Source of the DNA: Prochlorococcus marinus str. MIT 0917
GTDB lineage: Bacteria; Cyanobacteriota; Cyanobacteriia; PCC-6307; Cyanobiaceae
Assembly (NCBI RefSeq): GCF_027359575.1
Contig: NZ_CP114784.1
Coordinates: 743,819 to 807,818, forward strand
Length of the DNA stretch: 64,000 nt
Direction: 5' to 3'
The position numbers were made by a program, and so were the translations under genes. The stretch's first letter is position 1; every line of letters begins with the position of its first letter. Positions 6,279 through 52,099 of the stretch are shown here, one piece after another. A model generated the notes under the pieces. It saw only the letters and a list, made by a program, of their open reading frames with translations, had not been told where the DNA came from and did not search any database.

Positions 6279-6352
<74 letters not shown>

Positions 6353-24055: not shown

Positions 24056-26926
24056 ATGGATGTGAATAAGATGCAAACACATAAAAAAGAAGGAATATCT
24101 AAAGCAAAAACATTCACAATTCCTTTTACTTTACAAGAAATCAAAGATAATAGTATTATTATTACTAGTAGTGAGTCTAAACTCTCTAAAGAAAAAATAA
24201 TTAAGCAAGCATTTAAATCTCATTCTGAAAATAATATTCCAGAAGCAGTAAAATATTATCAACTGTTTATTAATCAAGGCTTCGAGGATTCCAGGGTTTT
24301 CTCAAATTATGGAATTATCTTAAAAGGTTTTGGAAAATTAAAAGAAGCAGAATTATTATACCGAAAAGCAATTAAAATCAACCCTGAATTCTCTGATGCC
24401 TATTTGAATTTAGGAGATTTACTTAGAGATATTGGTGAATTAAAAGACGCAGAAATATATACTAATAAAGCGATATCAATCAATCCTAATTTTGCAGATG
24501 CTCATTGTAATCTGGGAAGTATCTTAAGAGATGTTGGTAAATCGCATGAAGCTGAAATTGCATATATTAAAGCTATTGAAATTAATCCTAATTTTACAGA
24601 GGCTTATTTATATTTAGGAAATATATTAAGAGATCGGGGAAACTTGCAAGAAGCTGAATCATATACTCGCAAAGCTATTGAAATCAGGCCTGATTGTGCT
24701 GATGCTCATTGCAATCTGGGAAGCATATTGAAAGATCATGGCAAATTAGAAGATGCGGAAATAGCATGTCTTAAAGCTATTGAACTTGCTCCTGATTTAG
24801 CCTTTGCTCATCTAAATCTGGGAAGCATATTTAAAGATCTTGGCAAATTACAAGAAGCAGAATTATCAACACGAAAAGCAATTGAATTAAAACCTGATTT
24901 TACTAATGCTCATTTACATCTGGGAAATATATTGAGAGATCTTGGCAAATTACAAGAAGCAGAATTATCAACACGAAAAGCAATTGAATTAAAACCTGAT
25001 TTTAGTTATGCTCATTTACATCTGGGAAATATATTGAGAGATCTTGGCAAGTTAAAAGAAGCTGAATTATCAACACGAAAAGCAATTGAACTGACACCTA
25101 AATCAGCAGATGCTCATTTAAATCTGGGAAATATATTGAGAGATCTTGGCAAAACAGAACAAGCCGAATTGTCATACCGAAATGCAATTAACATTAAACC
25201 TGATTTCGCAAATGCATATTCCAATCTTGGAAACATTTTAAGAGAGCTTCGTAAATCACAAGAAGCTGAATTATATACTCGTAAAGCTATTAAACTTGTG
25301 CCTGATTTCGCAGAGTTTCATTCCAATCTTGGAAACATATTAAGAGATCTTGGCAACTTAAAAGAAGCGGAAATTTCATATCTTAAAGCTATTGAACTTA
25401 ATCCTGATTTAGGAATTGCACATAATAACCTTGGAAACATTTTAGGAGAGCTTAGTAAATTACAAGAAGCAGAATTATATACTCGTAAAGCTATTAAACT
25501 TATGCCTGATAACGTTAATGCTTATAACAATCTTGGAAACATATTAAGGGATCTTGAAAAACTTGATGATGCAATAAATATATACAAAAAAGCAATAAAA
25601 TTAAACAATCAATCATCAAGGGCGAAGCTTGGTTTAATTGAAACCAAAGGCCATATCTGCGACTGGAGTGATCTAGATATACAAACCATTTGGCTAAAGA
25701 ATCTTGGTATTGAAGGATCTTCTACTTCACCATTTGGATTACTTTATTTTGAAGATAATCCATTGAATAATTTAAAAAGAAGTAAAAAATATTTTAAAGA
25801 AAATTTTTATCGACCAACTAAAAAAATAAAACATACTAAAAAAAATATAATTCATATAGGTTATTTCTCTGCTGATTTCCGGATGCATCCTGTAATGCAA
25901 CTAATTGCTCCCTTACTTGAGTTGCATGATAAATCTAGGTTTAAAATATATTTATACTCATTTGTTAAAATAGAAGATGAATATACTGAAAGAGCAAGAA
26001 ATTCTGGATGCATATTTAGAAACATAAGCGAGTTTAATAATACCGAAGCTATAGCTTTAGCAAGAAGTGACGAAATTGATATTGCTGTAGATCTGATGGG
26101 TTATACAAAACACAATAGGTTTAATATATTTTCTTCGAGAGTCGCACCTATTCAAATAAATTATTTGGGATATCCTTCTACTGTTGGTTCTAATATTATT
26201 GATTATATTATTGCAGATAAAATTGTAATCCCAGATAATTATGAAAAATTCTACGCAGAAAAGATACTAAGAATGCCAAATTGTTATATATGTAATGATG
26301 ATAAAATCAAAATAGATAAAAAACTTATTTCTCGAAAAGATTTCAACCTACCTGAGAAAGGATTTATCTTTACTTGCTTTAATAATAATAAAAAAATCAC
26401 ACCCAAAGAGTTTGATATTTGGATGAGATTACTAATTAAAATAAAAGGAAGTGTACTTTGGTTGAAACAGCCAAATAAATTAGCGACTGATAATTTGTAT
26501 AGAGAAGCAGAGAAAAGAAATGTAGATCCAAAACGTTTAATCTTCGCAAATCCAGTTAAATTTAATTTACATTTAGCAAGACACTCTCTTGGAGATCTTG
26601 GACTTGATACTTTTAACTTTAATGGTCATAAAACAACTTTTGATGCATTAAGTGCAGGATTACCAGTCCTAACAAAAATTGGAGAAAACTTTGTGGCAAG
26701 AGTTTCATCAAGTCTATTAAATTCAATAGGCTTGCCAGAACTAATTACATATAATGAAAATGAATATGAAGAAACAGCATTACGACTAGCAAATAATAGT
26801 GATGAACTTTTTAAATTAAAATCTAAGCTATCAAAACTAATGAAAGAACCAACACATTTTTCTTCAAAATTATATACTCAAGATCTTGAAACTATTTATC
26901 ATAATCTTGTTCGAAAATCATTTTAG
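24056..26926 (+). CDS. Large TPR protein with OGT/SPINDLY-like (GT41) domain
   Basis: 956 residues, the longest of the family. The cassette (AKTFTIPFTLQEIKDNS) is followed by thirteen TPR units (about 85-525) and a linker ending in SSTSPFGLLYFEDNPL. The GT41 domain begins near 598 (IHIGYFSADFRMHPVMQL); FTCFNNNKKI near 772 holds the expected UDP-contacting Lys, and NGHKTTFDALSAG near 856 keeps the His-x-Thr found in eukaryotic OGT but replaced in the 7318 and 47564 proteins. Its last 730 bases are nearly identical to 61725-62453, and its TPR part near 25216-25450 is nearly identical to 63487-63720. It is followed 46 bases later by a GDP-mannose hydrolase. Confidence 0.9.
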   Translation: MDVNKMQTHKKEGISKAKTFTIPFTLQEIKDNSIIITSSESKLSKEKIIKQAFKSHSENNIPEAVKYYQLFINQGFEDSRVFSNYGIILKGFGKLKEAELLYRKAIKINPEFSDAYLNLGDLLRDIGELKDAEIYTNKAISINPNFADAHCNLGSILRDVGKSHEAEIAYIKAIEINPNFTEAYLYLGNILRDRGNLQEAESYTRKAIEIRPDCADAHCNLGSILKDHGKLEDAEIACLKAIELAPDLAFAHLNLGSIFKDLGKLQEAELSTRKAIELKPDFTNAHLHLGNILRDLGKLQEAELSTRKAIELKPDFSYAHLHLGNILRDLGKLKEAELSTRKAIELTPKSADAHLNLGNILRDLGKTEQAELSYRNAINIKPDFANAYSNLGNILRELRKSQEAELYTRKAIKLVPDFAEFHSNLGNILRDLGNLKEAEISYLKAIELNPDLGIAHNNLGNILGELSKLQEAELYTRKAIKLMPDNVNAYNNLGNILRDLEKLDDAINIYKKAIKLNNQSSRAKLGLIETKGHICDWSDLDIQTIWLKNLGIEGSSTSPFGLLYFEDNPLNNLKRSKKYFKENFYRPTKKIKHTKKNIIHIGYFSADFRMHPVMQLIAPLLELHDKSRFKIYLYSFVKIEDEYTERARNSGCIFRNISEFNNTEAIALARSDEIDIAVDLMGYTKHNRFNIFSSRVAPIQINYLGYPSTVGSNIIDYIIADKIVIPDNYEKFYAEKILRMPNCYICNDDKIKIDKKLISRKDFNLPEKGFIFTCFNNNKKITPKEFDIWMRLLIKIKGSVLWLKQPNKLATDNLYREAEKRNVDPKRLIFANPVKFNLHLARHSLGDLGLDTFNFNGHKTTFDALSAGLPVLTKIGENFVARVSSSLLNSIGLPELITYNENEYEETALRLANNSDELFKLKSKLSKLMKEPTHFSSKLYTQDLETIYHNLVRKSF

Positions 26927-30480: not shown

Positions 30481-32181
30481 ATGGAATTGACTGAAAAAGA
30501 AACAGATCAAAAGCAAAAAGTTCCTGAACTTAAAACATTCGCTGTTCCATTTACTTTAGGAGAAGTCAAAGAAAATATTACTATTAATATAAATAGTCCT
30601 TATAAACCATCGAAAGAGGAATTAATTAAAAAAGCATTTAAATTTCACTCAGAAGGTAATATTCCAGAAGCAGTAAAATATTATCAAATTTTTATCAATC
30701 AAGGCTTCGAGGACTACAGAGTTTTCTCTAATTATGGAATCATCTTAAAAGGTTTTGGCAAATTAAAAGAAGCAGAAATCTCATACCGTAAAGCTATTGA
30801 ACTTAATCCTGATTTCGCTGACTCTCATTTATATTTAGGAAATATATTAAGTGATCTTAATTATTTAGAAGAAGCAGAATTATCAACTCGTAAAGCTATT
30901 CAACTTAATCCTAATTTGACAGAGGCGCATTCCAATCTAGGTAATGTATTGAGAGATCTTGGTAACTTAAAAGAAGCAGAAATATCATATCGTAAAGCAA
31001 TTGAACTTAATCCTAAGTTTCCAGAAGCCTATTCTAATCTAGGGAACATATTTAGTGACCTTGGCAAATTGAAAGAAGCAGAAACATTATATCGTAAAGC
31101 AATTGAACTTAATCCTGATTTCGCTGACGTACATTGCAACTTAGGAATCCTTTTGAGAGATATTGGGAAATTAAAGCAAGCCGAAATATCAACTAGAAAA
31201 GCTATTGAGCTTCGTCCTGAATGGGGAGAAGCTCATCATAATCTTTCTTCTATTCTTTTAAAATTAAAGCAATTTAAAGAAGGATGGAATCACTTTGAAT
31301 GGAGATGGAAAATGAGTAATTCAAAATTGTCAATCGGCAAAAAGTTAAGGACAACTAAACCAGTGTGGACAATAGAATCTAAAGGTAGGGTTTTACTTTG
31401 GCCAGAACAAGGTGTGGGTGATGAAATATTTTTTTCATCTATGATTCCTGAATTAGAAAAAAAAGTTGATCATTTGATAGTTATGGCAGATAAGAGACTA
31501 ATAGCTATTTTCAAAAGATCATTTGATAGAAGAATTGTTTATGTAAATAAGGATAGTTATGTAGAAGAAGATAAGTATGATTTTCAAATTCCTATGGGCT
31601 CACTTCCAAAAATCTTTAGAGAAAATGAAGAAAGTTTTAAAAGAGTACCAGAAAATTATCTTAAAGTTGATGATATAAAAGCTAGTAATATCAGAAATAG
31701 AATACAAAATCCTAACTACGAAAAAATCGTGGGTATCTCATGGAAAACTATTGCAAAAGCTAAGAAAAGTAGGTCGCTAGAACTAGAAGAATTGATTCTT
31801 GGTATTTATTCACCAAAAATTAAATTCATTTGTCTTCAATATGGTGATGTAGAAAAAGAAGTTTATAATTTAAAAAATAAACATGGGGTGGAAATTGAGT
31901 TAGTAAATGATATTGATAAATTCAATGATATTGATGGACTCTCATCCCTAATAAGTGCATGTGATGAAATAGTTACGATTGATAATAGTACAGTTATTTT
32001 AGCAGGTGCCATTGGTTCAAAATGTAACTTACTAATACCAATTAATTCTCATTGGTATTGGGGATTAAATGAGATTAAGAGTTACTGGTTTCCTTCAATT
32101 AAATTATTTAGAAAACAGAATTTTAAAACATGGAATGAGCCATTAAAATCTATAAAGAAACAAATTAATCCCTATAAATAA
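30481..32181 (+). CDS. TPR protein with GT9-like glycosyltransferase domain (type 1)
   Basis: 566 residues. The cassette (LKTFAVPFTLGEVKENIT) is followed by six TPR units (about 80-290), the last altered to SSILLKLKQFKEGWNHFEWRW. The catalytic part starts near 302 with GRVLLWPEQGVGDEIFFSSM and includes IVGISWKTIAKAKKS and ACDEIVTIDNSTVILAG. It belongs to the same C-terminal type as 19009 and 42657 but is clearly more diverged, so it is an older paralogue. Sugar donor and acceptor are unknown. ATG at 30481; kdsA follows 110 bases after the stop. Confidence 0.84.
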   Translation: MELTEKETDQKQKVPELKTFAVPFTLGEVKENITININSPYKPSKEELIKKAFKFHSEGNIPEAVKYYQIFINQGFEDYRVFSNYGIILKGFGKLKEAEISYRKAIELNPDFADSHLYLGNILSDLNYLEEAELSTRKAIQLNPNLTEAHSNLGNVLRDLGNLKEAEISYRKAIELNPKFPEAYSNLGNIFSDLGKLKEAETLYRKAIELNPDFADVHCNLGILLRDIGKLKQAEISTRKAIELRPEWGEAHHNLSSILLKLKQFKEGWNHFEWRWKMSNSKLSIGKKLRTTKPVWTIESKGRVLLWPEQGVGDEIFFSSMIPELEKKVDHLIVMADKRLIAIFKRSFDRRIVYVNKDSYVEEDKYDFQIPMGSLPKIFRENEESFKRVPENYLKVDDIKASNIRNRIQNPNYEKIVGISWKTIAKAKKSRSLELEELILGIYSPKIKFICLQYGDVEKEVYNLKNKHGVEIELVNDIDKFNDIDGLSSLISACDEIVTIDNSTVILAGAIGSKCNLLIPINSHWYWGLNEIKSYWFPSIKLFRKQNFKTWNEPLKSIKKQINPYK

Positions 32182-34278: not shown

Positions 34279-34357
34279 ATTCCCTTATCTGTGTTCTAAA
34301 CCACTAAATAACTGCCTTATTAACAGTTGGGAGCAAGTTCCAATCTTGTAGGGATCG
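34279..34357 (+). pseudogene. Decayed copy of tRNA-Arg(UCU)
   Basis: It aligns along nearly its full length with the intact tRNA at 6279-6352: TTCCCTTA for CTCCCTTA, AACTGCCTTATTAACAGT for AACTGCCTTCTAAGCAGT, and GCAAGTTCCAATCTTGTAGG for GCAAGTTCGAATCTTGCAGG, ending GGATCG. The acceptor and D-arm no longer pair. Same orientation as the intact tRNA. Together they bracket about 28 kb of accessory genes. Confidence 0.72.
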
Positions 34358-39039: not shown

Positions 39040-39350
39040 ATCATCTGCAAAGTCATAACGACCCTAGTTACCGAAAAGTACGAAGTAAGCAGAAGACAAG
39101 CTCGAAGGATTACAGCTAAGGCAATGGGCTGATTGTTCAGAACTTTGAAGAGATCAATATTGAGCGGCAGCAAATGGTGGCAAAGCTACTAATAAATTTT
39201 GAACAACCAATGCAAAAAGGACTCATCAACAACCAATCAAGTGGCTTTGATGCATTTACAAAACAAATAATTTCACTGGCTGTATTGACTGCTGATTCCT
39301 TGTATAAGAACGAGTTAGAAAATCTAGTATGTGCTCGATTTCAAAACCTA
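39040..39350 (+). pseudogene. Broken copy 4 of the small HTH-like repeat gene
   Basis: The plus strand matches 16033-16371 (minus) and 13855-14175 (minus), including TCGAAGGATTACAGCTAAGG and the later segment GLINNQSSG. A stop follows the AKAMG-like position (39130), and the frame resumes later as a 73-codon open stretch (39174-39395). It points away from the TPR gene starting at 38966. Confidence 0.75.
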
Positions 39351-41309: not shown

Positions 41310-41899
41310 GAAGCTATTTCCTCAATTTCTTGTAAAATCTTCCCAAGAAAAGAATAAGCATTTATGAGGTCAGGATCAATTTCAATAGCTTTGCGAATAG
41401 ATAATTCTGCCTCTTTTAAGTTACCAAGATCTTTAAAAATAGTTCCTAGATTGTAATGAGCATTAGCAAAATTGGGTTCAATTGCTATTGCCTTTTTTGT
41501 AGCTATCTCAGCTTCTTTTGATTTGCCTTGATCTTGCAATATGCTTCCTAGTAGTAAATGATGATTTGCTATATCAGGATTGATTTTAATAGCTTTAATT
41601 GTCAATATCTCTGCTTCTTCTAGTTGACCTTGATCTTTTAAAATCATTGCATAATTAGAAAAAACACTATCAGTAATAAAACCTTGATTAATACAATATT
41701 GGTATGATTTTACCGCTTCGTTAATATTTCCTTTTAAATGAAAATCTATTGCTTGTTTAATTATTCTTTCTGAAGAAGGTTTAGAAGGAGTATTGAAATT
41801 AATGGAAATATTTTTTTTTCTTTCTCCCAGTTCAAAAGGAACTGGGAATGTTTTCACTTCAAACCCTGCTTTCTTTTGATTTTTTCGTTCCTCAGTCAA
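41306..41899 (-). CDS. TPR-only member of the family, coupled to the carbamoyltransferase
   Basis: 197 residues. The normal cassette (VKTFPVPFELGERKKNIS) and four TPR units (about 80-195) are present, and the protein ends there without a catalytic domain. The stop overlaps the carbamoyltransferase ATG. In other members the enzyme domain is fused at this place, so this looks like an unfused, two-subunit version of the same design. The start is TTG at 41899, aligned with the GTG of its relatives; TATAAT lies upstream on the minus strand near 41936-41941. Confidence 0.82.
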   Translation of the reverse strand: MTEERKNQKKAGFEVKTFPVPFELGERKKNISINFNTPSKPSSERIIKQAIDFHLKGNINEAVKSYQYCINQGFITDSVFSNYAMILKDQGQLEEAEILTIKAIKINPDIANHHLLLGSILQDQGKSKEAEIATKKAIAIEPNFANAHYNLGTIFKDLGNLKEAELSIRKAIEIDPDLINAYSFLGKILQEIEEIAS

Positions 41900-42110: not shown

Positions 42111-42374
42111 ACATTATTAGGAACTTTATCAAAGCTAGTTATATTAATAGTTTTACTTTCTTTAATTCCCATAGAATCGAGACTAATAAGGAGCCACAAT
42201 TGCGATGGGTTATTGGGTAATGAGACGTTTTTAGATAGCATTTGGTTATTAGGCACTGATATGGCGCATATAATTTCTAATCATTTCTACTTTAACAACT
42301 ATCAATTCCTATCAAGCAAAGTAGAGGTTTTTTTCTTCCAAAGATCACTGGTATGAATGACCTTTCACCTGATT

Positions 42375-42447
42375 GAGGCCATGGCTCAGCGAGTAGAGCA
42401 CCTGCATGGCATGCAGGGGGTAAGCGGTTCAAGTCCGCTTGGCTACA
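42375..42447 (+). pseudogene. Decayed tRNA-Ala(GGC), remnant R1
   Basis: 73 nt aligned end to end with the intact tRNA at 51877-51949. The anticodon arm CCTGCATGGCATGCAGG is unchanged, but the acceptor stem has a mismatch (GAGGCCA against TGGCTAC), the D-loop GG pair is lost, and the T-loop is TTCAAGT. It is followed by about 110 bases that match the 3' flank of the intact tRNA. It lies just upstream of the TPR gene at 42657, in the same direction. Confidence 0.85.
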
Positions 42448-42776
42448 TTAGGATTTCTAAGTCACGGTAATAGATTTCAGAGGATTTACGTTAGAGCGTG
42501 AATAAAACGATATTGCCTGATATGGCAATTGTGTGTTCCGTTATGCCCTCATTTTCAGCTCTGAATCTTATGCTCGAATGTTTTTATCAACTATTATGAT
42601 GAACCTTAGCGCAAGATATAATTTTAATTAATAGTCCATTTATAAAATAAATAGACGTGATTGAAAGAAAAAAAGATCAAAAGCAAAAAGTTCCTGAAGT
42701 TAAAACATTCGCTGTTCCATTTATTTTAGGAGAAGTCAAAGAAAATATTTCCATTAATTTAAATACTCCTTCTAAA
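42411..42776 (+). repeat. Left arm of a 366-nt inverted repeat
   Basis: The stretch from the 3' half of R1 through the promoter and the first 40 codons of the gene at 42657 is repeated in reverse complement at 46430-46795. Both arms are 366 nt and I see no difference between them by eye. The arms enclose 3653 bases holding the bodies of two TPR genes. Confidence 0.88.
42617..42622 (+). promoter_or_regulatory. Likely -10 box of the TPR gene at 42657
   Basis: TATAAT ending 35 bases before the GTG start. As it is inside the inverted repeat, the same box serves the gene at 44744-46549 on the other strand. Confidence 0.58.
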
Positions 42777-44372
42777 ATATCTAAAGAACAAATAATTAAC
42801 CAAGCATTTAAATTTCATTCAGAAGGTAATATTCCAGAAGCAGTAAAATATTATCAACTTTTTATAAATCAAGGGTTAGAAGATTACAGAGTTTTCTCTA
42901 ATTATGGAATCATCTTAAAAGGTTTTGGCAAATTAAAAGAAGCAGAAATCTCATACCGTAAAGCTATTGAACTTCATCCTGATTTTGCAGATGCTTATTT
43001 AAATCTGGGAGATTTATTGAGAGATCTTAGCAACTTAGAAGAAGCAGAATTATATACTCGTAAAGCTATTAAAATTAATCCTGATTTTGCAGATGCTAAT
43101 TCCAATTTGGGAATAATTTTGAAAGATCTTGGTAACTTAAAAGAGGCAGAATTATATACTCGTAAAGCTATTAAAATTAATCCTGATTTAGCAGATTCAC
43201 ATTCCAATTTGGGAATCATTTTAAATAATATTGGCAAATCACAAGAAGCAGAATTATCTATTAGAAAAGCTATTAAACTCAATCCTAATTTAGCAGATGC
43301 TCATTTAACTTTGGGAAACATATTAAGAGATCTTGGCAAATTAGAAGAAGCTGAAATATCACAGCGTAAAGCAATTGAACTGAAACCTGATTTTGCAGAG
43401 GCATACTCTAATCTTGCTAGTCTTCTTTTACAAAGAATGAAATTTAAAGAAGGTTGGGATTATTATGAATGGAGATGGAAAGTACATGATAAGGACAATT
43501 ATATTGGAGAAAAATTAGTTACATCAAAACCTGAGTGGTCACTAATCAGTAAAGGTAGGGTTTTGCTTTGGGGCGAGCAAGGAATAGGAGATCAAATTCT
43601 ATTTACATCTTTAATACCTGAATTAGTACAAAAAGTTGATAAATTAATTGTTAAAGTTGATAAAAGATTGATTCCTTTATTGCAAAGATCTTTCGATAAG
43701 AATATAATTTATTTTGATCAAAATGATTTTATTAGTGAAGATAAATATGATTTCCAAATTGCAATGGGTTCCCTACCTAGGTTACTAATAACTAACAAAG
43801 AAAGCTTGACAAAAAGTAATAAGACATATCTAAAAGTAGATGATAAAAAGTCTCATAACTTTAGAAAGCAATTAAGAAATTTAAAATTTGAAAAAATTAT
43901 AGGCATTTCTTGGAAATCGATGTCAAAAATCAATAAAGATAAATCATTATCCCTTGAAGAATTTATTCTAGGAATTCATTCTCCATCATTTTGTTTTGTT
44001 AATCTTCAGTATGGTGATACTACTGATGAAATTATTAATCTAAAGAAAAAATATGATATTAATATTATTGATATAGATGAAGTGGATACTTTTAATGATA
44101 TTGATGACCTTGCATCTCTAATCAATGCATGTGATCAAATAGTAACCATTGAAAATTTAATCTCAGACCTGGCAGGTGCAATTGGTATCAATAGCTTGAT
44201 TTTACTAAATAATAAAAGTCATTGGAGATTTGGACAAACTAATGATTACAGTTATTGGTTTCCATTGCAAAAGCTATTTAGAAAAAATCAGTCTCAGACA
44301 TGGGATAACACTTTAAATCAAATCCAGAAAGATTTAATTAGCGAAAACAATAAGATTCACACTTCCATTTGA
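42657..44372 (+). CDS. TPR protein with GT9-like glycosyltransferase domain (type 1)
   Basis: 571 residues. The cassette (VKTFAVPFILGEVKENIS) is followed by six TPR units (about 80-290), the last being SLLLQRMKFKEGWDYYEWRW. The catalytic part starts near 300 (GRVLLWGEQGIGDQILF) and closely follows 19009-21135 to the last residues, including IIGISWKSMSK, ACDQIVTIENL and SYWFPLQKLF. Even the DNA just after the stop (ttctggactaattacttcc) matches that gene, so the catalytic half and 3' flank were duplicated together. GTG start. It converges on 44744-46549 with two strong hairpins between. Confidence 0.86.
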   Translation: MIERKKDQKQKVPEVKTFAVPFILGEVKENISINLNTPSKISKEQIINQAFKFHSEGNIPEAVKYYQLFINQGLEDYRVFSNYGIILKGFGKLKEAEISYRKAIELHPDFADAYLNLGDLLRDLSNLEEAELYTRKAIKINPDFADANSNLGIILKDLGNLKEAELYTRKAIKINPDLADSHSNLGIILNNIGKSQEAELSIRKAIKLNPNLADAHLTLGNILRDLGKLEEAEISQRKAIELKPDFAEAYSNLASLLLQRMKFKEGWDYYEWRWKVHDKDNYIGEKLVTSKPEWSLISKGRVLLWGEQGIGDQILFTSLIPELVQKVDKLIVKVDKRLIPLLQRSFDKNIIYFDQNDFISEDKYDFQIAMGSLPRLLITNKESLTKSNKTYLKVDDKKSHNFRKQLRNLKFEKIIGISWKSMSKINKDKSLSLEEFILGIHSPSFCFVNLQYGDTTDEIINLKKKYDINIIDIDEVDTFNDIDDLASLINACDQIVTIENLISDLAGAIGINSLILLNNKSHWRFGQTNDYSYWFPLQKLFRKNQSQTWDNTLNQIQKDLISENNKIHTSI

Positions 44373-44394
44373 TTCTGGACTAATTACTTCCTTT

Positions 44395-44447
44395 TTTCAA
44401 GGGTTTACCCCTCCTGCATGGCATGCAGGAGGGGTAAACCCTTGAAA
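44395..44447 (+). terminator. Very long perfect hairpin with a tRNA-Ala anticodon-arm apex
   Basis: Arms 44395-44420 and 44422-44447 pair over 26 bp without a mismatch. The centre CCTGCATGGCATGCAGG equals the anticodon arm of tRNA-Ala. It lies 23 bases after the stop of the TPR-GT9 gene and is preceded by a T-run (44392-44397). A transcription terminator acting in both directions is the simplest role; a recombination or attachment site is the alternative. Confidence 0.8.
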
Positions 44448-44681
44448 GTCATAGCGATCACTAAGTTCTCTTGTTAAGTAAGAAATGATTGCTGCACGAT
44501 TTACCTCATAGCAGTTTTTGACATTAATAACTAAATACAAAATAATAAAAAAAGAACTGTAAAGGCAGGCTGCATATTGAATTCTAAACTAGGTAATGGG
44601 TGAAATTTAATTGTAATCAATTATATTCTAAGCTATTTTATAATTACATTAGTTGCCTATTTAATTTCTAAAATTGTGATT

Positions 44682-44718
44682 TTATCTATCAAGTCTCCTT
44701 GGGAGACTTGATAGATAA
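44682..44718 (-). terminator. Perfect hairpin between convergent TPR genes
   Basis: A 17-bp stem (44682-44698 with 44702-44718; TTATCTATCAAGTCTCC and its complement) with a 3-nt loop. It lies 26 bases after the stop of the minus-strand gene at 44744, so it is the likely terminator for that gene. Confidence 0.72.
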
Positions 44719-44743
44719 TGGTGAATAGGTTTATGTTTTGAAT

Positions 44744-46549
44744 TCATGCTTCAACTTCCATTTCTTCTTTAAGTGCAGTTGATACTCTTTCCATAACTTC
44801 TTCCCAATTGTTTCTTTCATTTTGTCGGAATAACCTCATAGATGGATACCAAAATGTACTATCTCCTTTAATTCCCCAAGCCCAAAAAGATATATTTTTC
44901 ATAAGTAAACACACTTTTTTACCCATGCTTGCTGCAAGAGTAGCTGCGCAACTGTCATTGCTAATAACTAAGTCACAGCTATTAATTATTGCAGCATGTT
45001 CTTCAAAGTCCAAAATACTGTCAATTTCATCTTGGCAAGCAACAAAATGCTTTCTAAAAGAACAATGTTTCAGTTGTTCTGATCCATAACCCTTTTGTAA
45101 AGAAAGAAACTTGATATTATTTTTCTTAAGAATAGTTCCAAAAGTTTCTAGAGGAATTGATCGTCCAGCATAAAAACCTTTTTCTATATATGGGTTTCCT
45201 TGCCAATTAATTCCAATGATTGGTAATGTTTCATTAGAAAGTTTCTCCACCCATTTATAGTTAAGTTCTTGTCTTGCGCTGACATATGGTTTGGTAATGA
45301 TTGGATTTTTTGGGTTAACCTTTAGATATCGTGGTAAAGATAAAAGCGGGATCCATTGACCTTCTGAAATTGAATCAACTTGATATGAAAACAATGGATT
45401 GGGATCAATTCCAGAGGATTTGATCAATGTATGTAATTTTTCCTGGGCACAAAATGAAACTTCTATGCCTAGTTTTTTAAGATAAGGAATATACCTCATA
45501 AATAGAATAGTGTCGCCTAAGCCTTGTTCAGTCACAACTAAAAGCTTTTCTCCCTTGTTTAGTTTTCTATCATCTATTCGATTAATTTTTGGATTAGCAT
45601 GTACTTTTGAGGGGTTATCGATTTTAAATCTATATTCATAATTTTCTAGACCAGATTCATATTCTCCTTTACGTAGCTGAATGTTTGCTAAGGTATAAAA
45701 AGCATCTGCAAAATTAGGATTTAGATTAATAGATTTTCGTATAGATATTTCAGCCTCCTTAAATCTTCCAAGGATTTTCAATATGAATCCAAGATTATAA
45801 AAAGCCTCTGCTAAATTAGGATTTATTTGAATAGCTTTTAGAGTATAATATTCTGCTTCCTCTAATCTATCTAAACTTGTCAAGATTGTTCCAAGATTAT
45901 AATTTGCTAAGGCATATTCAGGATTTATTTCAATGGCTTTACATGTCACTGTTTCTGCTTCTTTTAATCTCCCAAGTTTAATCAAAATAGTTCCCAAGTT
46001 TGAATATGATTCTGCATGACTTGGGTTAAGTTCAATTCCTTTTCTAAATGATATTTCTGCTTCTTTTAATCTCCCAAGTTCAATCAAAATAGTTCCCAAA
46101 TTAGAATATGATTCTGCAAAATTTGGTTTAAGTTCAATTGTTTTCATATAGGATATCTCTGCTTCTTTTAACTTACCCATTTCTGTTAATATATTTCCAA
46201 GATTGAAATGAGCGTCAGCGTAGCTAGGATTATATTCAATAGCTGTACGATAGAACTTTTCTGCTTCTTGTGATTTCCCAAGATCTTGCAATATTATTCC
46301 ATAATTATAAAAAACTCTGTGGTCCTTTAATCCTTGATCTATTAAATTTTGATAATATTTTGCCGCTTCGTTAATATTTCCTTTTAAATGAAAATCTATT
46401 GCTTGTTTAATTATTTTTTCTGAAGAAGGTTTAGAAGGAGTATTTAAATTAATGGAAATATTTTCTTTGACTTCTCCTAAAATAAATGGAACAGCGAATG
46501 TTTTAACTTCAGGAACTTTTTGCTTTTGATCTTTTTTTCTTTCAATCAC
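44744..46549 (-). CDS. TPR protein with GT9-like glycosyltransferase domain (type 2)
   Basis: 601 residues. The first 40 residues equal those of 42657-44372 (they lie in the inverted repeat). Seven TPR units (about 80-315) end in NIQLRKGEYESGLENYEYRF. The catalytic part begins near 330 (KGEKLLVVTEQGLGDTILFM), with PIIGINWQGNPY and a CDLVISNDSCAATLAA segment like that of 37071-38966. The catalytic domains of these two genes match closely in one 193-nt identical tract and differ elsewhere. Thus the N terminus comes from one relative and the catalytic part from another. GTG start. Confidence 0.86.
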   Translation of the reverse strand: MIERKKDQKQKVPEVKTFAVPFILGEVKENISINLNTPSKPSSEKIIKQAIDFHLKGNINEAAKYYQNLIDQGLKDHRVFYNYGIILQDLGKSQEAEKFYRTAIEYNPSYADAHFNLGNILTEMGKLKEAEISYMKTIELKPNFAESYSNLGTILIELGRLKEAEISFRKGIELNPSHAESYSNLGTILIKLGRLKEAETVTCKAIEINPEYALANYNLGTILTSLDRLEEAEYYTLKAIQINPNLAEAFYNLGFILKILGRFKEAEISIRKSINLNPNFADAFYTLANIQLRKGEYESGLENYEYRFKIDNPSKVHANPKINRIDDRKLNKGEKLLVVTEQGLGDTILFMRYIPYLKKLGIEVSFCAQEKLHTLIKSSGIDPNPLFSYQVDSISEGQWIPLLSLPRYLKVNPKNPIITKPYVSARQELNYKWVEKLSNETLPIIGINWQGNPYIEKGFYAGRSIPLETFGTILKKNNIKFLSLQKGYGSEQLKHCSFRKHFVACQDEIDSILDFEEHAAIINSCDLVISNDSCAATLAASMGKKVCLLMKNISFWAWGIKGDSTFWYPSMRLFRQNERNNWEEVMERVSTALKEEMEVEA

Positions 46550-46795
46550 GTCTATTTATTTTATAAATGGACTATTAATTAAAATTATATCTTGCGCTAA
46601 GGTTCATCATAATAGTTGATAAAAACATTCGAGCATAAGATTCAGAGCTGAAAATGAGGGCATAACGGAACACACAATTGCCATATCAGGCAATATCGTT
46701 TTATTCACGCTCTAACGTAAATCCTCTGAAATCTATTACCGTGACTTAGAAATCCTAATGTAGCCAAGCGGACTTGAACCGCTTACCCCCTGCAT
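46430..46795 (-). repeat. Right arm of the 366-nt inverted repeat
   Basis: Reverse complement of 42411-42776. It includes the first 40 codons of the gene ending at 44744, its promoter, a tRNA-Ala 3' flank and part of tRNA-Ala remnant R2. Confidence 0.88.
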
Positions 46796-46800
46796 ACCAT
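46759..46800 (-). pseudogene. Partial tRNA-Ala(GGC), remnant R2
   Basis: The minus strand carries the 3' half of tRNA-Ala with the same changes as R1 (ggtaagcggttcaag, ggctaca). The 5' half is replaced by gagcttcat. The replacing sequence (46798-46845, caaaacccctgaatatccta) also follows remnant R4 at 50630-50680, so it looks like the end of one particular element. Confidence 0.8.
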
Positions 46801-46930
46801 GAAGCTCAAAACCCCTGAATATCCTAGTCATAGATTTAAAACCAACCTCTTAAAAGCTCCTTACACTATGTAAAGCGCGCATAATTGAGCGCATATCTGA
46901 TAGCCCTAGATATAGGGCCACTCAATCACT

Positions 46931-46980
46931 TATGAACAGACATATATAGATATAGATATAGATATATATGTCTGTTCATA
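46931..46980. repeat. Long palindrome with GATATA repeats in the loop
   Basis: An 18-bp perfect stem (46931-46948 with 46963-46980; TATGAACAGACATATATA and its complement) around a 14-nt loop of GATATA units, followed by AAAAAAG. It lies between divergent genes (46549 minus, 47147 plus), so a terminator for either is not obvious. Confidence 0.6.
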
Positions 46981-47146
46981 AAAAAGAACAAAATGCAATC
47001 CTTATATCGTAAATTGAAACCAAATAAGAAGTCAAATTAATTGAAATTATTATGTTATTCAGCTACTTTAATTATTATTTTGGTTATTTATATAGTTGAT
47101 CAGATTTATAGTCTCAGCAAAGATAGCAACGCCTAGAAAATCTTAA

Positions 47147-47338
47147 ATGACAAAAGTCATTCACTCTGATTTTTTAAATGTCGGAGAAGCAATGTGTTCT
47201 CTTTTTTCTTCAATAGAAAAGAATCCAGCTTGGGCTTTGAAGCCTCAAATGGTTGCTGAACTTGCATTGTGCTTGCACATGCTCCAGAGAGAATTATATC
47301 TACATTGCATCGAGGAGGAATATGAAAAACGCTACTAA
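47147..47338 (+). CDS. Small protein of unknown function
   Basis: 63 residues (MTKVIHSDFLNVGEAMCSLF, then NPAWALKPQMVAELALCLHM). It is helical and acidic to neutral, with no signal peptide or known motif. Its 3' end overlaps the start of the next small gene (47322) by 17 bases, and a strong GAGGAGG ribosome-binding site for that gene lies inside it, so the two form an overlapping pair. Tiny overlapping genes of this kind are usual in phages and integrative elements. Confidence 0.5.
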   Translation: MTKVIHSDFLNVGEAMCSLFSSIEKNPAWALKPQMVAELALCLHMLQRELYLHCIEEEYEKRY

Positions 47339-47501
47339 ACAAGAGATGGAATTAAGAGCAGGCTTTGCTGCTGGCTTACTCGCTCAAGATCATAGTTGCA
47401 CCGTAGTAACGACCCGAGTGACCGAAGAATACAAATTAAGCAAAAGAAAGGCTCGAAGGATTACAGCGAAGGCAATGGATTTAAACAGAAATATTATCTA
47501 G
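47322..47501 (+). CDS. Small HTH-like repeat gene, copy 5, C-terminally truncated
   Basis: 59 residues from the ATG at 47322, which has GAGGAGG 5-11 bases upstream. Longer readings start at 47253 but lack such a site. AAGLLAQDHSCTVVTTRVTE and LSKRKARRITAKAMDL match the first half of 16033-16371. The sequence then ends with NRNII, while the longer relative continues for about 50 residues. It has the best N terminus of the five copies. It points away from the TPR gene starting at 46549. Confidence 0.6.
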   Translation: MKNATKQEMELRAGFAAGLLAQDHSCTVVTTRVTEEYKLSKRKARRITAKAMDLNRNII

Positions 47502-50329: not shown

Positions 50330-50451
50330 ATCTATTATGAGCTAATAACTGTTCGCATAATAGCTATATCTAGCTATATCAGGCAATATCGTATTATGCA
50401 TTTACTTCCATAAATCCCGCTATATCTTTTGCTATAACGAATAAATCTTAA

Positions 50452-50494
50452 TGAACCCAAACGGGTTCGAACCGCTAAACCCCTGCATGCCATT
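50452..50494 (-). pseudogene. Partial tRNA-Ala(GGC), remnant R3
   Basis: The minus strand matches the 3' half of tRNA-Ala (atggcatgcagggg, gcggttcgaacc) with changes. About 110 bases of the tRNA 3' flank follow, including the tatatcaggcaatatcg segment at 50374-50391. It is upstream of, and in line with, the TPR gene at 50329. Confidence 0.78.
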
Positions 50495-50579: not shown

Positions 50580-50596
50580 GACCTATCTATCTAGTA

Positions 50597-50630
50597 TGGA
50601 GCCAAGCGCACTCGAACCGCTGACCCCTAC
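50597..50630 (-). pseudogene. Partial tRNA-Ala(GGC), remnant R4
   Basis: The minus strand matches the last 34 nt of tRNA-Ala (gtcagcggttcgag, gcttggctcca) with one change in the T-stem. Beyond it (50631-50680) the sequence aaaacccctaaatattctagg matches the sequence next to R2. Confidence 0.78.
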
Positions 50631-51645: not shown

Positions 51646-51876
51646 TTAATATAAATAATTACTACTGAGATTAGATTAAATACGATATAAGATATTTTAG
51701 TAAATCAGATAAGACTGTGAAGATCAAAGCCTTAATCTTAATATCATTCCTTAATAGGATTATCGATCTAACAATGAGAGCACAATAGCGATTTCTAGCT
51801 ATATCAGGCAATATCGTATTATTCACGCTTTACAGCAAATTCTCTGAAATCTATTGCTGTGAATGAGAAAACCTAA

Positions 51877-51949
51877 TGGAGCCAAGCGGACTCGAACCGC
51901 TGACCCCCTGCATGCCATGCAGGTGCTCTACCAGCTGAGCTATGGCCCC
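51877..51949 (-). tRNA. tRNA-Ala (anticodon GGC), intact
   Basis: A 73-nt cloverleaf: acceptor GGGGCCA with TGGCTCC, discriminator A, D-arm GCTCAGCTGGTAGAGC, anticodon stem CCTGC/GCAGG with loop ATGGCAT (anticodon GGC), T-arm GCGGTTCGAGTCCGC. It reads GCC/GCU codons. Four remnants of it (R1-R4) lie at 42375, 46759, 50452 and 50597, so it has probably served as an integration site. Confidence 0.96.
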
Positions 51950-52099
51950 AAATCGTTCTAAACACTGTGTTATCAACAGCTTTCAAGGAATTTAGAGTTG
52001 AAGTCAAAATCACTTGATATTGGCTGTATAGCAATTCTGCGCAACAATATGCGCAATGGATTACCAATCACAGAGTGGGTTCCAGGACTGAATGGCAGA

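Follow-up and report, generated by a model that had tools for sequence, protein, structure and literature searches.

Two converging TPR genes of Prochlorococcus marinus str. MIT 0917 have their starts inside the arms of an apparently perfect inverted repeat, which raises the question of why the arms are identical and whether recombination between them could act as a switch. We analysed the repeat in its window, i.e. the whole stretch of 64,000 nucleotides under study, and compared it with relatives, with one genome per species (designated below by G numbers). A scan of named genomes returned Prochlorococcus, as single-cell genomes, and distant relatives, and none of these was demonstrably of the same species. 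The genome that contains the window is 1.92 Mb in size and forms a single contig.

The inverted repeat and its two genes

The repeat and the genes that it flanks consist of the following features (coordinates in the window, strand in brackets):

42411–42776 (+): left arm, comprising 38 nt of the tRNA-Ala 3′ half, then leader DNA, then gene A up to codon 40
46430–46795 (−): right arm, with the same content, forming the head of gene B
42657–44372 (+): gene A, TPR repeats and a C-terminal domain that no family matches with confidence
44744–46549 (−): gene B, TPR and a weakly GT9-like domain, with a mosaic head
44682–44718 (−): hairpin at the 3′ end of gene B, a likely terminator (−25 kcal/mol, z −8.6)

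The arm-to-arm comparison confirmed what the initial annotation had claimed about the geometry of the locus. The arms are reverse complements of each other at 366/366 positions, with no hidden differences, 3653 nt lie between them (42777–46429), and the two TPR genes, both of which start with GTG, converge and have their first 40 codons (120 nt) in the arms. The left arm is bounded by mismatches at 42410 and 42777. It belongs to a longer homologous stretch (42402–43355 and 45851–46804) in which 175 of 954 positions differ. Inward of the arms the homology continues to 43355 and 45851 with 70.1 % identity, and at the outer edge it is lost over no more than nine bases, in the anticodon arm of a tRNA-Ala sequence. 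In 2000 shuffles of the mismatches no identical run exceeded 63 nt, and the identity over 366 nt is therefore not due to chance.

Besides the coding part, each arm contains the last 38 nt of the tRNA-Ala(GGC) 3′ half and 208 nt of leader DNA. The presence of tRNA-Ala sequence in each arm, as proposed before, holds for the 3′ half, but the 5′ half extends outward from the left arm alone and the tRNA called there is degenerate. A promoter had also been assigned to the arms. A TATAAT hexamer is indeed located at 42617–42622 and at the mirror position in the other arm, but sigma-70-like sites in the region show no excess over shuffled sequences (23 vs 22.3).

Regarding the gene bodies, the proposed division into type 1 and type 2 GT9 could be kept only in part: gene B is faintly GT9-like (PF01075, E=0.0012, below the Pfam cut-off), but the family search with the C-terminal domain of gene A returned no match to any glycosyltransferase family. 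The closest relatives of both bodies are paralogues from the same island, with 90 % identity for gene A (at most 54 % elsewhere) and 74 % for gene B (at most 64 % elsewhere), and a scan of IMG/VR with gene B found no relative. Among the relatives searched, no orthologue of either body exceeded 64 % identity, so that an alignment of the empty site took the place of a gene-by-gene comparison of the orientation.

tRNA-Ala halves, the palindromic core and the empty site

The tRNA-derived sequences and the elements that adjoin them are:

51876–51950 (−): canonical tRNA-Ala(GGC), the anchor of the island (65.5 bits; G030-like upstream flank)
42374–42448 (+): putative chimeric pseudo-tRNA-Ala, in which the 5′ half of an older half-site and the 3′ half of the gene-A cassette are joined at the core, as judged from the empty-site alignment
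50451–50493 (−): further tRNA-Ala 3′ half
50596–50627 (−): further tRNA-Ala 3′ fragment, preceded by E3-like sequence
42401–42417 (no strand): core 1, CCTGCATGGCATGCAGG, anticodon arm, an exact copy
44413–44429 (no strand): core 2, identical to the tRNA-Ala anticodon arm
46788–46804 (−): core 3, degenerate, at the junction of the E3 end with the tRNA 3′ half of gene B
44394–44448 (no strand): 26-bp perfect hairpin centred on core 2 (−46.9 kcal/mol, z −10.3), probably both the gene-A terminator and the place where two element ends meet head-to-head
44430–44660 (+): element end E5, in relatives directly after a tRNA 5′ half
46805–46935 (−): element end E3, in relatives directly before a tRNA 3′ half (G002 87 %, G030 83 %, G005 79 %, G033 78 %; also G015)
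47102–47501 (+): two small conserved genes by the E end, one of an 80-aa family and one of a 119-aa helix-turn-helix family, truncated here
42418–44429 (+): gene-A cassette, 2012 bp, located at the core, with a direct 17-bp core at each end, from the empty-site alignment with G033, G020, G060 and G031

The tRNA called at 42374–42448 scored 50.7 bits, compared with 65.5 for the canonical gene at 51950–51876, and lacks the second acceptor pair (A2:A71 mismatch). Fragments of the tRNA-Ala 3′ part were found on the minus strand at 46804, 50493 and 50627. Relative to the canonical tRNA at 51950, the right arm and the E3 sites have the same orientation and the 5′ half at 42374 is inverted. In G033, a complete relative, four 5′ halves (nt 1–43) and three 3′ halves (beginning at nt 27, 28 or 29 and ending at nt 75) occur together with the same tRNA. 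The two kinds of halves overlap at nt 27–43, i.e. in the anticodon arm, and this 17-mer is a near-perfect palindrome with 8-bp inverted arms around one base. Each relative searched has at most one copy, in tRNA-Ala, whereas the genome of the window has three, in the canonical tRNA, at 42401 and at 44413–44429 between the converging genes. We also considered the hairpin in the centre as a mere terminator, and this reading was dropped, as the 17-bp core in relatives occurs nowhere outside tRNA-Ala. Crossovers centred on the anticodon, with a flanking palindromic stem, have been described for tyrosine integrases (PMC8371274, PMC4383910).

Homologues of E5 were identified in G033, G020, G060 and G031, each immediately 3′ of a 5′ half, and each E3 homologue in the five relatives listed above immediately precedes a 3′ half. 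The two ends are also homologous to each other from 180 to 330 nt from the core, at equal distance and with 70–78 % identity, and in intact cases of both the same two small genes are found approximately 300 nt from the core. These similarities suggest that element ends of a single kind adjoin the tRNA halves in either orientation, an arrangement that a palindromic core would permit. The small-gene family was considered as a candidate terminase small subunit, but searches with it gave no match of weight in PHROGs, Pfam or NCBIfam and only insignificant fold matches in PDB. Among viral folds it matched phage proteins that are unnamed or uncharacterised, near E=0.001, and terminase small subunits followed only weakly below these.

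The empty site was constructed by joining 42374–42417 to 44430–44530, with 2012 bp removed. It aligned through the junction with G033 (83 % over 126 nt, one gap), G020 (82 %), G060 (80 %) and G031 (70 % over 188 nt). Because the excised junction aligns with four other species, the stretch 42418–44429 is an insertion exactly at the core. Such an insertion implies that the tRNA called at 42374–42448 combines an old 5′ half with a cassette-borne 3′ half and that the hairpin in the centre is the cassette end meeting E5 head-to-head. Moreover, E5 reads away from the 5′ half as it does in 4/4 relatives, so the present orientation is the parental one and can be explained without a net inversion. The comparison thus shows gene A to be a one-gene cassette inserted at the core, opposite in direction to its neighbour B.

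A profile search for PF00589 integrases found none in the window and none at the sites of 12 further relatives; two matches are located elsewhere in the genome, and divergent picocyanobacterial integrases are known to escape standard models (PMC10187409). It is from the junctions alone that we infer a site-specific insertion of the cassette, and the enzyme responsible, not encoded nearby, would have acted on it in trans.

Identity of the arms and the question of inversion

As the probable explanation of the locus we favour the insertion of the gene-A cassette at the tRNA-Ala core together with a recent non-reciprocal exchange of heads. By the comparison above, the cassette entered an older half-tRNA site at the palindromic anticodon core, where the 5′ half met the element end, and it points against the neighbouring gene-B cassette. 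Both cassettes start alike, with a tRNA 3′ half, the downstream flank of the tRNA, a promoter region and the TPR leader. Their heads were probably made identical by recent homologous exchange, either gene conversion or the copying of a head, which one genome cannot separate. Most simply, the exchange would have proceeded from A to B and run from the att junction, where the homology ends, to codon 40, and ectopic exchange of this type would reach many of the island's TPR paralogues, direct as well as inverted.

Gene conversion and concerted evolution leave identical tracts in otherwise diverged paralogues, whatever their orientation. The same pattern is seen here, where the identical tract is bounded on the outside by the att junction and on the inside by a homologous gene of 70 % identity, and several of the tracts span promoter plus leader. 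Gene B is a sharp mosaic, as its codons 1–40 are 100 % identical to gene A, and over the 60 nt that follow it shares 98 % identity with the same-strand gene at 41899. The leader of gene A and several stretches past it resemble the gene at 30481. The direction from A to B would be the simplest reading of such mosaic patterns, in a family whose members are all patchworks. Identical tracts are common among the TPR paralogues of the island and mostly direct (1035, 419, 234, 201 nt and more). Identical blocks of promoter and leader, with a diverged homologous gene after them, were also recovered in relatives: an inverted one of 494 nt in G033, from −254 to +239, a direct one of 351 nt in G002, from −297 to +53, beyond which the body looks unaligned in our ungapped comparison, and a direct one of 588 nt in G034. 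With such tracts common in the island and its relatives and gene B so sharply mosaic, the earlier proposal of a very recent duplication or continuing exchange has held up well.

The perfect identity and the coincidence of the att junction with the outer edge would also be expected from a fresh inverted segmental duplication, in which the head of one cassette was copied beside the other in a single event, without gene conversion. We consider this rather unlikely, since the genes remain homologous past codon 40, with 70 % identity. The inner edge thus lies within pre-existing homology, which argues for a recombination breakpoint and not for the end of a copied block.

A rival reading takes the repeat as an invertible switch, in which recombination at the arms or at the palindromic cores would flip the 3.65 kb back and forth in a manner that matters to the cell, similar to phase variation. 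Such a switch would fit the identical 366-nt inverted arms, the palindromic core at both of them (exact at one, degenerate at the other) and the situation in G033, a second species with longer inverted identical repeats around tRNA-Ala (1663 + 252 nt). However, both genes have the same arm sequence from position −246 to +119, so that an inversion would leave the proteins and the proximal promoters, along with the 40 codons, unchanged; the context beyond −246 alone would change, with the tRNA 5′ half swapped for E3. The empty-site test also gives the present orientation as the parental one, and no recombinase gene was found nearby (PF00589, in the window). Furthermore, equivalent blocks are direct in G002 and G034 and inverted in G033, which makes the inverted orientation incidental. 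Of the features that define phase variation, we found inverted repeats flanking a segment but not an inversion that alters a protein or a proximal promoter. We therefore regard a switch that matters to the cell as very improbable. A dedicated switch is unlikely, while a rare incidental inversion by ordinary recombination is, judging from the arms, quite possible. The inversion of 3653 bases with a swap of the gene bodies, as put forward by the initial annotation, thus stands in principle but finds no support as a functional switch. A short-read assembly, if one was used, could leave the orientation of the 3.65-kb interior arbitrary.

Constraint alone, i.e. strong selection on promoter and leader, is barely conceivable as the cause of the identity, for although the leader is conserved across many TPR genes of the genus, other leaders in the same island differ by ~9–30 % at the DNA level and the identity extends over the decayed tRNA 3′ half as well.

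Relation to known islands and cassettes

Among known systems, the structure most resembles additive flexible islands in which tRNA ends recur, as well as the Islander signature. It would depart from both in having no integrase, halves of the 5′ and the 3′ kind at one tRNA, and several one-gene segments. In the fGI-2 of Methylophilaceae, short repeats of tRNA parts separate variable segments of 330 bp–42 kb with 1–63 genes (PMC10872708), and tRNA-part repeats recur between variable segments at this island, too. The repeats of fGI-2, however, are direct and consist of the last 20 bp of tRNA-Lys (PMC10872708), whereas here 5′ and 3′ halves of tRNA-Ala, which meet in the palindromic anticodon arm, are found to either side of the tRNA and in either orientation. 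Islander reported 2083 islands with an anticodon-centred crossover, and 5′ fragments in 159/3919 (PMC4383910). Its signature, an intact tRNA with displaced fragments flanking foreign DNA, is present at our locus, but the integrase expected within the island was not found (PF00589; window and sites of the 12 further relatives). The Islander filters would reject these segments, as they have no integrase, several are at or below the 2-kb limit and one fragment is inverted.

Tycheposons of Prochlorococcus (Hackl et al., Cell 2023), as summarised in PMC10872708, have a tRNA at the border, carry cargo genes and measure 4–200 kb. From that summary, our island resembles them in the host, the border tRNA and the cargo genes, and differs in that tycheposons have their own tyrosine recombinase, none of which was found here, and in the size of the segments around the repeat (1.2–3.6 kb). 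Several segments of the island fall in this size range and contain a single gene each. The gene cassettes of integrons likewise carry one gene each and have a hairpin-forming recombination core at the 3′ end. The gene-A cassette is alike in both respects, but its core is derived from a tRNA, and no counterpart to the integrase and attI of integrons was found in the window (no PF00589 match).

At the level of the genus, we propose only tentatively that tRNA-Ala(GGC) may anchor an array of tiny, often one-gene cassettes that lack integrases and are moved in trans. The palindromic core might permit insertion on both sides and in both orientations and leave 5′ and 3′ halves behind, and the shared heads of promoter and leader might reshuffle TPR enzymes, which would amount to an integron-like system on a tRNA. 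At base resolution, the locus reveals how an abundant ocean phototroph adds genes to a surface-glycosylation-type island and homogenises them, by insertion at half-tRNA cores and by exchange of shared heads. It is also a caution for annotation, since what is called as a second tRNA-Ala gene may be a reassembled pseudogene and an inverted repeat with identical arms is not necessarily a switch. The palindromic core would offer a simple and testable reason why both kinds of tRNA fragments, in both orientations, pile up around one tRNA.

Small genes at the element ends

The element ends, which abut the 5′ and 3′ halves of tRNA-Ala, carry two small conserved genes about 300 nt off the tRNA core (the 17-bp anticodon-arm sequence in which both halves overlap).

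Two small conserved genes
47102-47501, also 39046-39127: window
G033:C1:846533-847106 and 875391-875979: complete genome of a relative of another species (G033)

The products are 80 aa and 119 aa long; in the longer one a helix-turn-helix is predicted, along with long helices. Searches of PHROGs, Pfam and NCBIfam gave no family match for these proteins; their folds weakly resemble phage proteins, possibly terminase small subunits. Decayed copies were found upstream of many TPR genes across the genus.

Repeated sequence among TPR genes

A conserved N-terminal leader, K-T-F-x-V-P-F-x-L-G-E (e.g. 42657-42776), recurs in TPR proteins whose C-terminal domains are unrelated (GT41, 2OG-Fe(II) oxygenase, methyltransferase-like). 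The tandem TPR genes at 62471-66434, a region extending beyond the window end, have 1035 identical nt in common, a stretch that takes in promoter and leader. The region at 24056-26926 shares other identical tracts with these genes. In G033, tRNA-Ala lies between two nearly identical inverted copies of a sequence about 1.9 kb long. This repeat contains 5′ half tRNAs, and in it two TPR genes have their 3′ parts in common.

Inverted repeat arms in G033
G033:C1:851488-853403
G033:C1:864418-866333

A second tRNA with a displaced half

A displaced 3′ half was also seen for tRNA-Arg(TCT), about 28 kb distant and matching at 81 % over 48 nt.

6279-6352: tRNA-Arg(TCT)
34310-34357: its displaced 3′ half

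As this half begins at nt 27, the anticodon-centred pattern may extend to a second tRNA.
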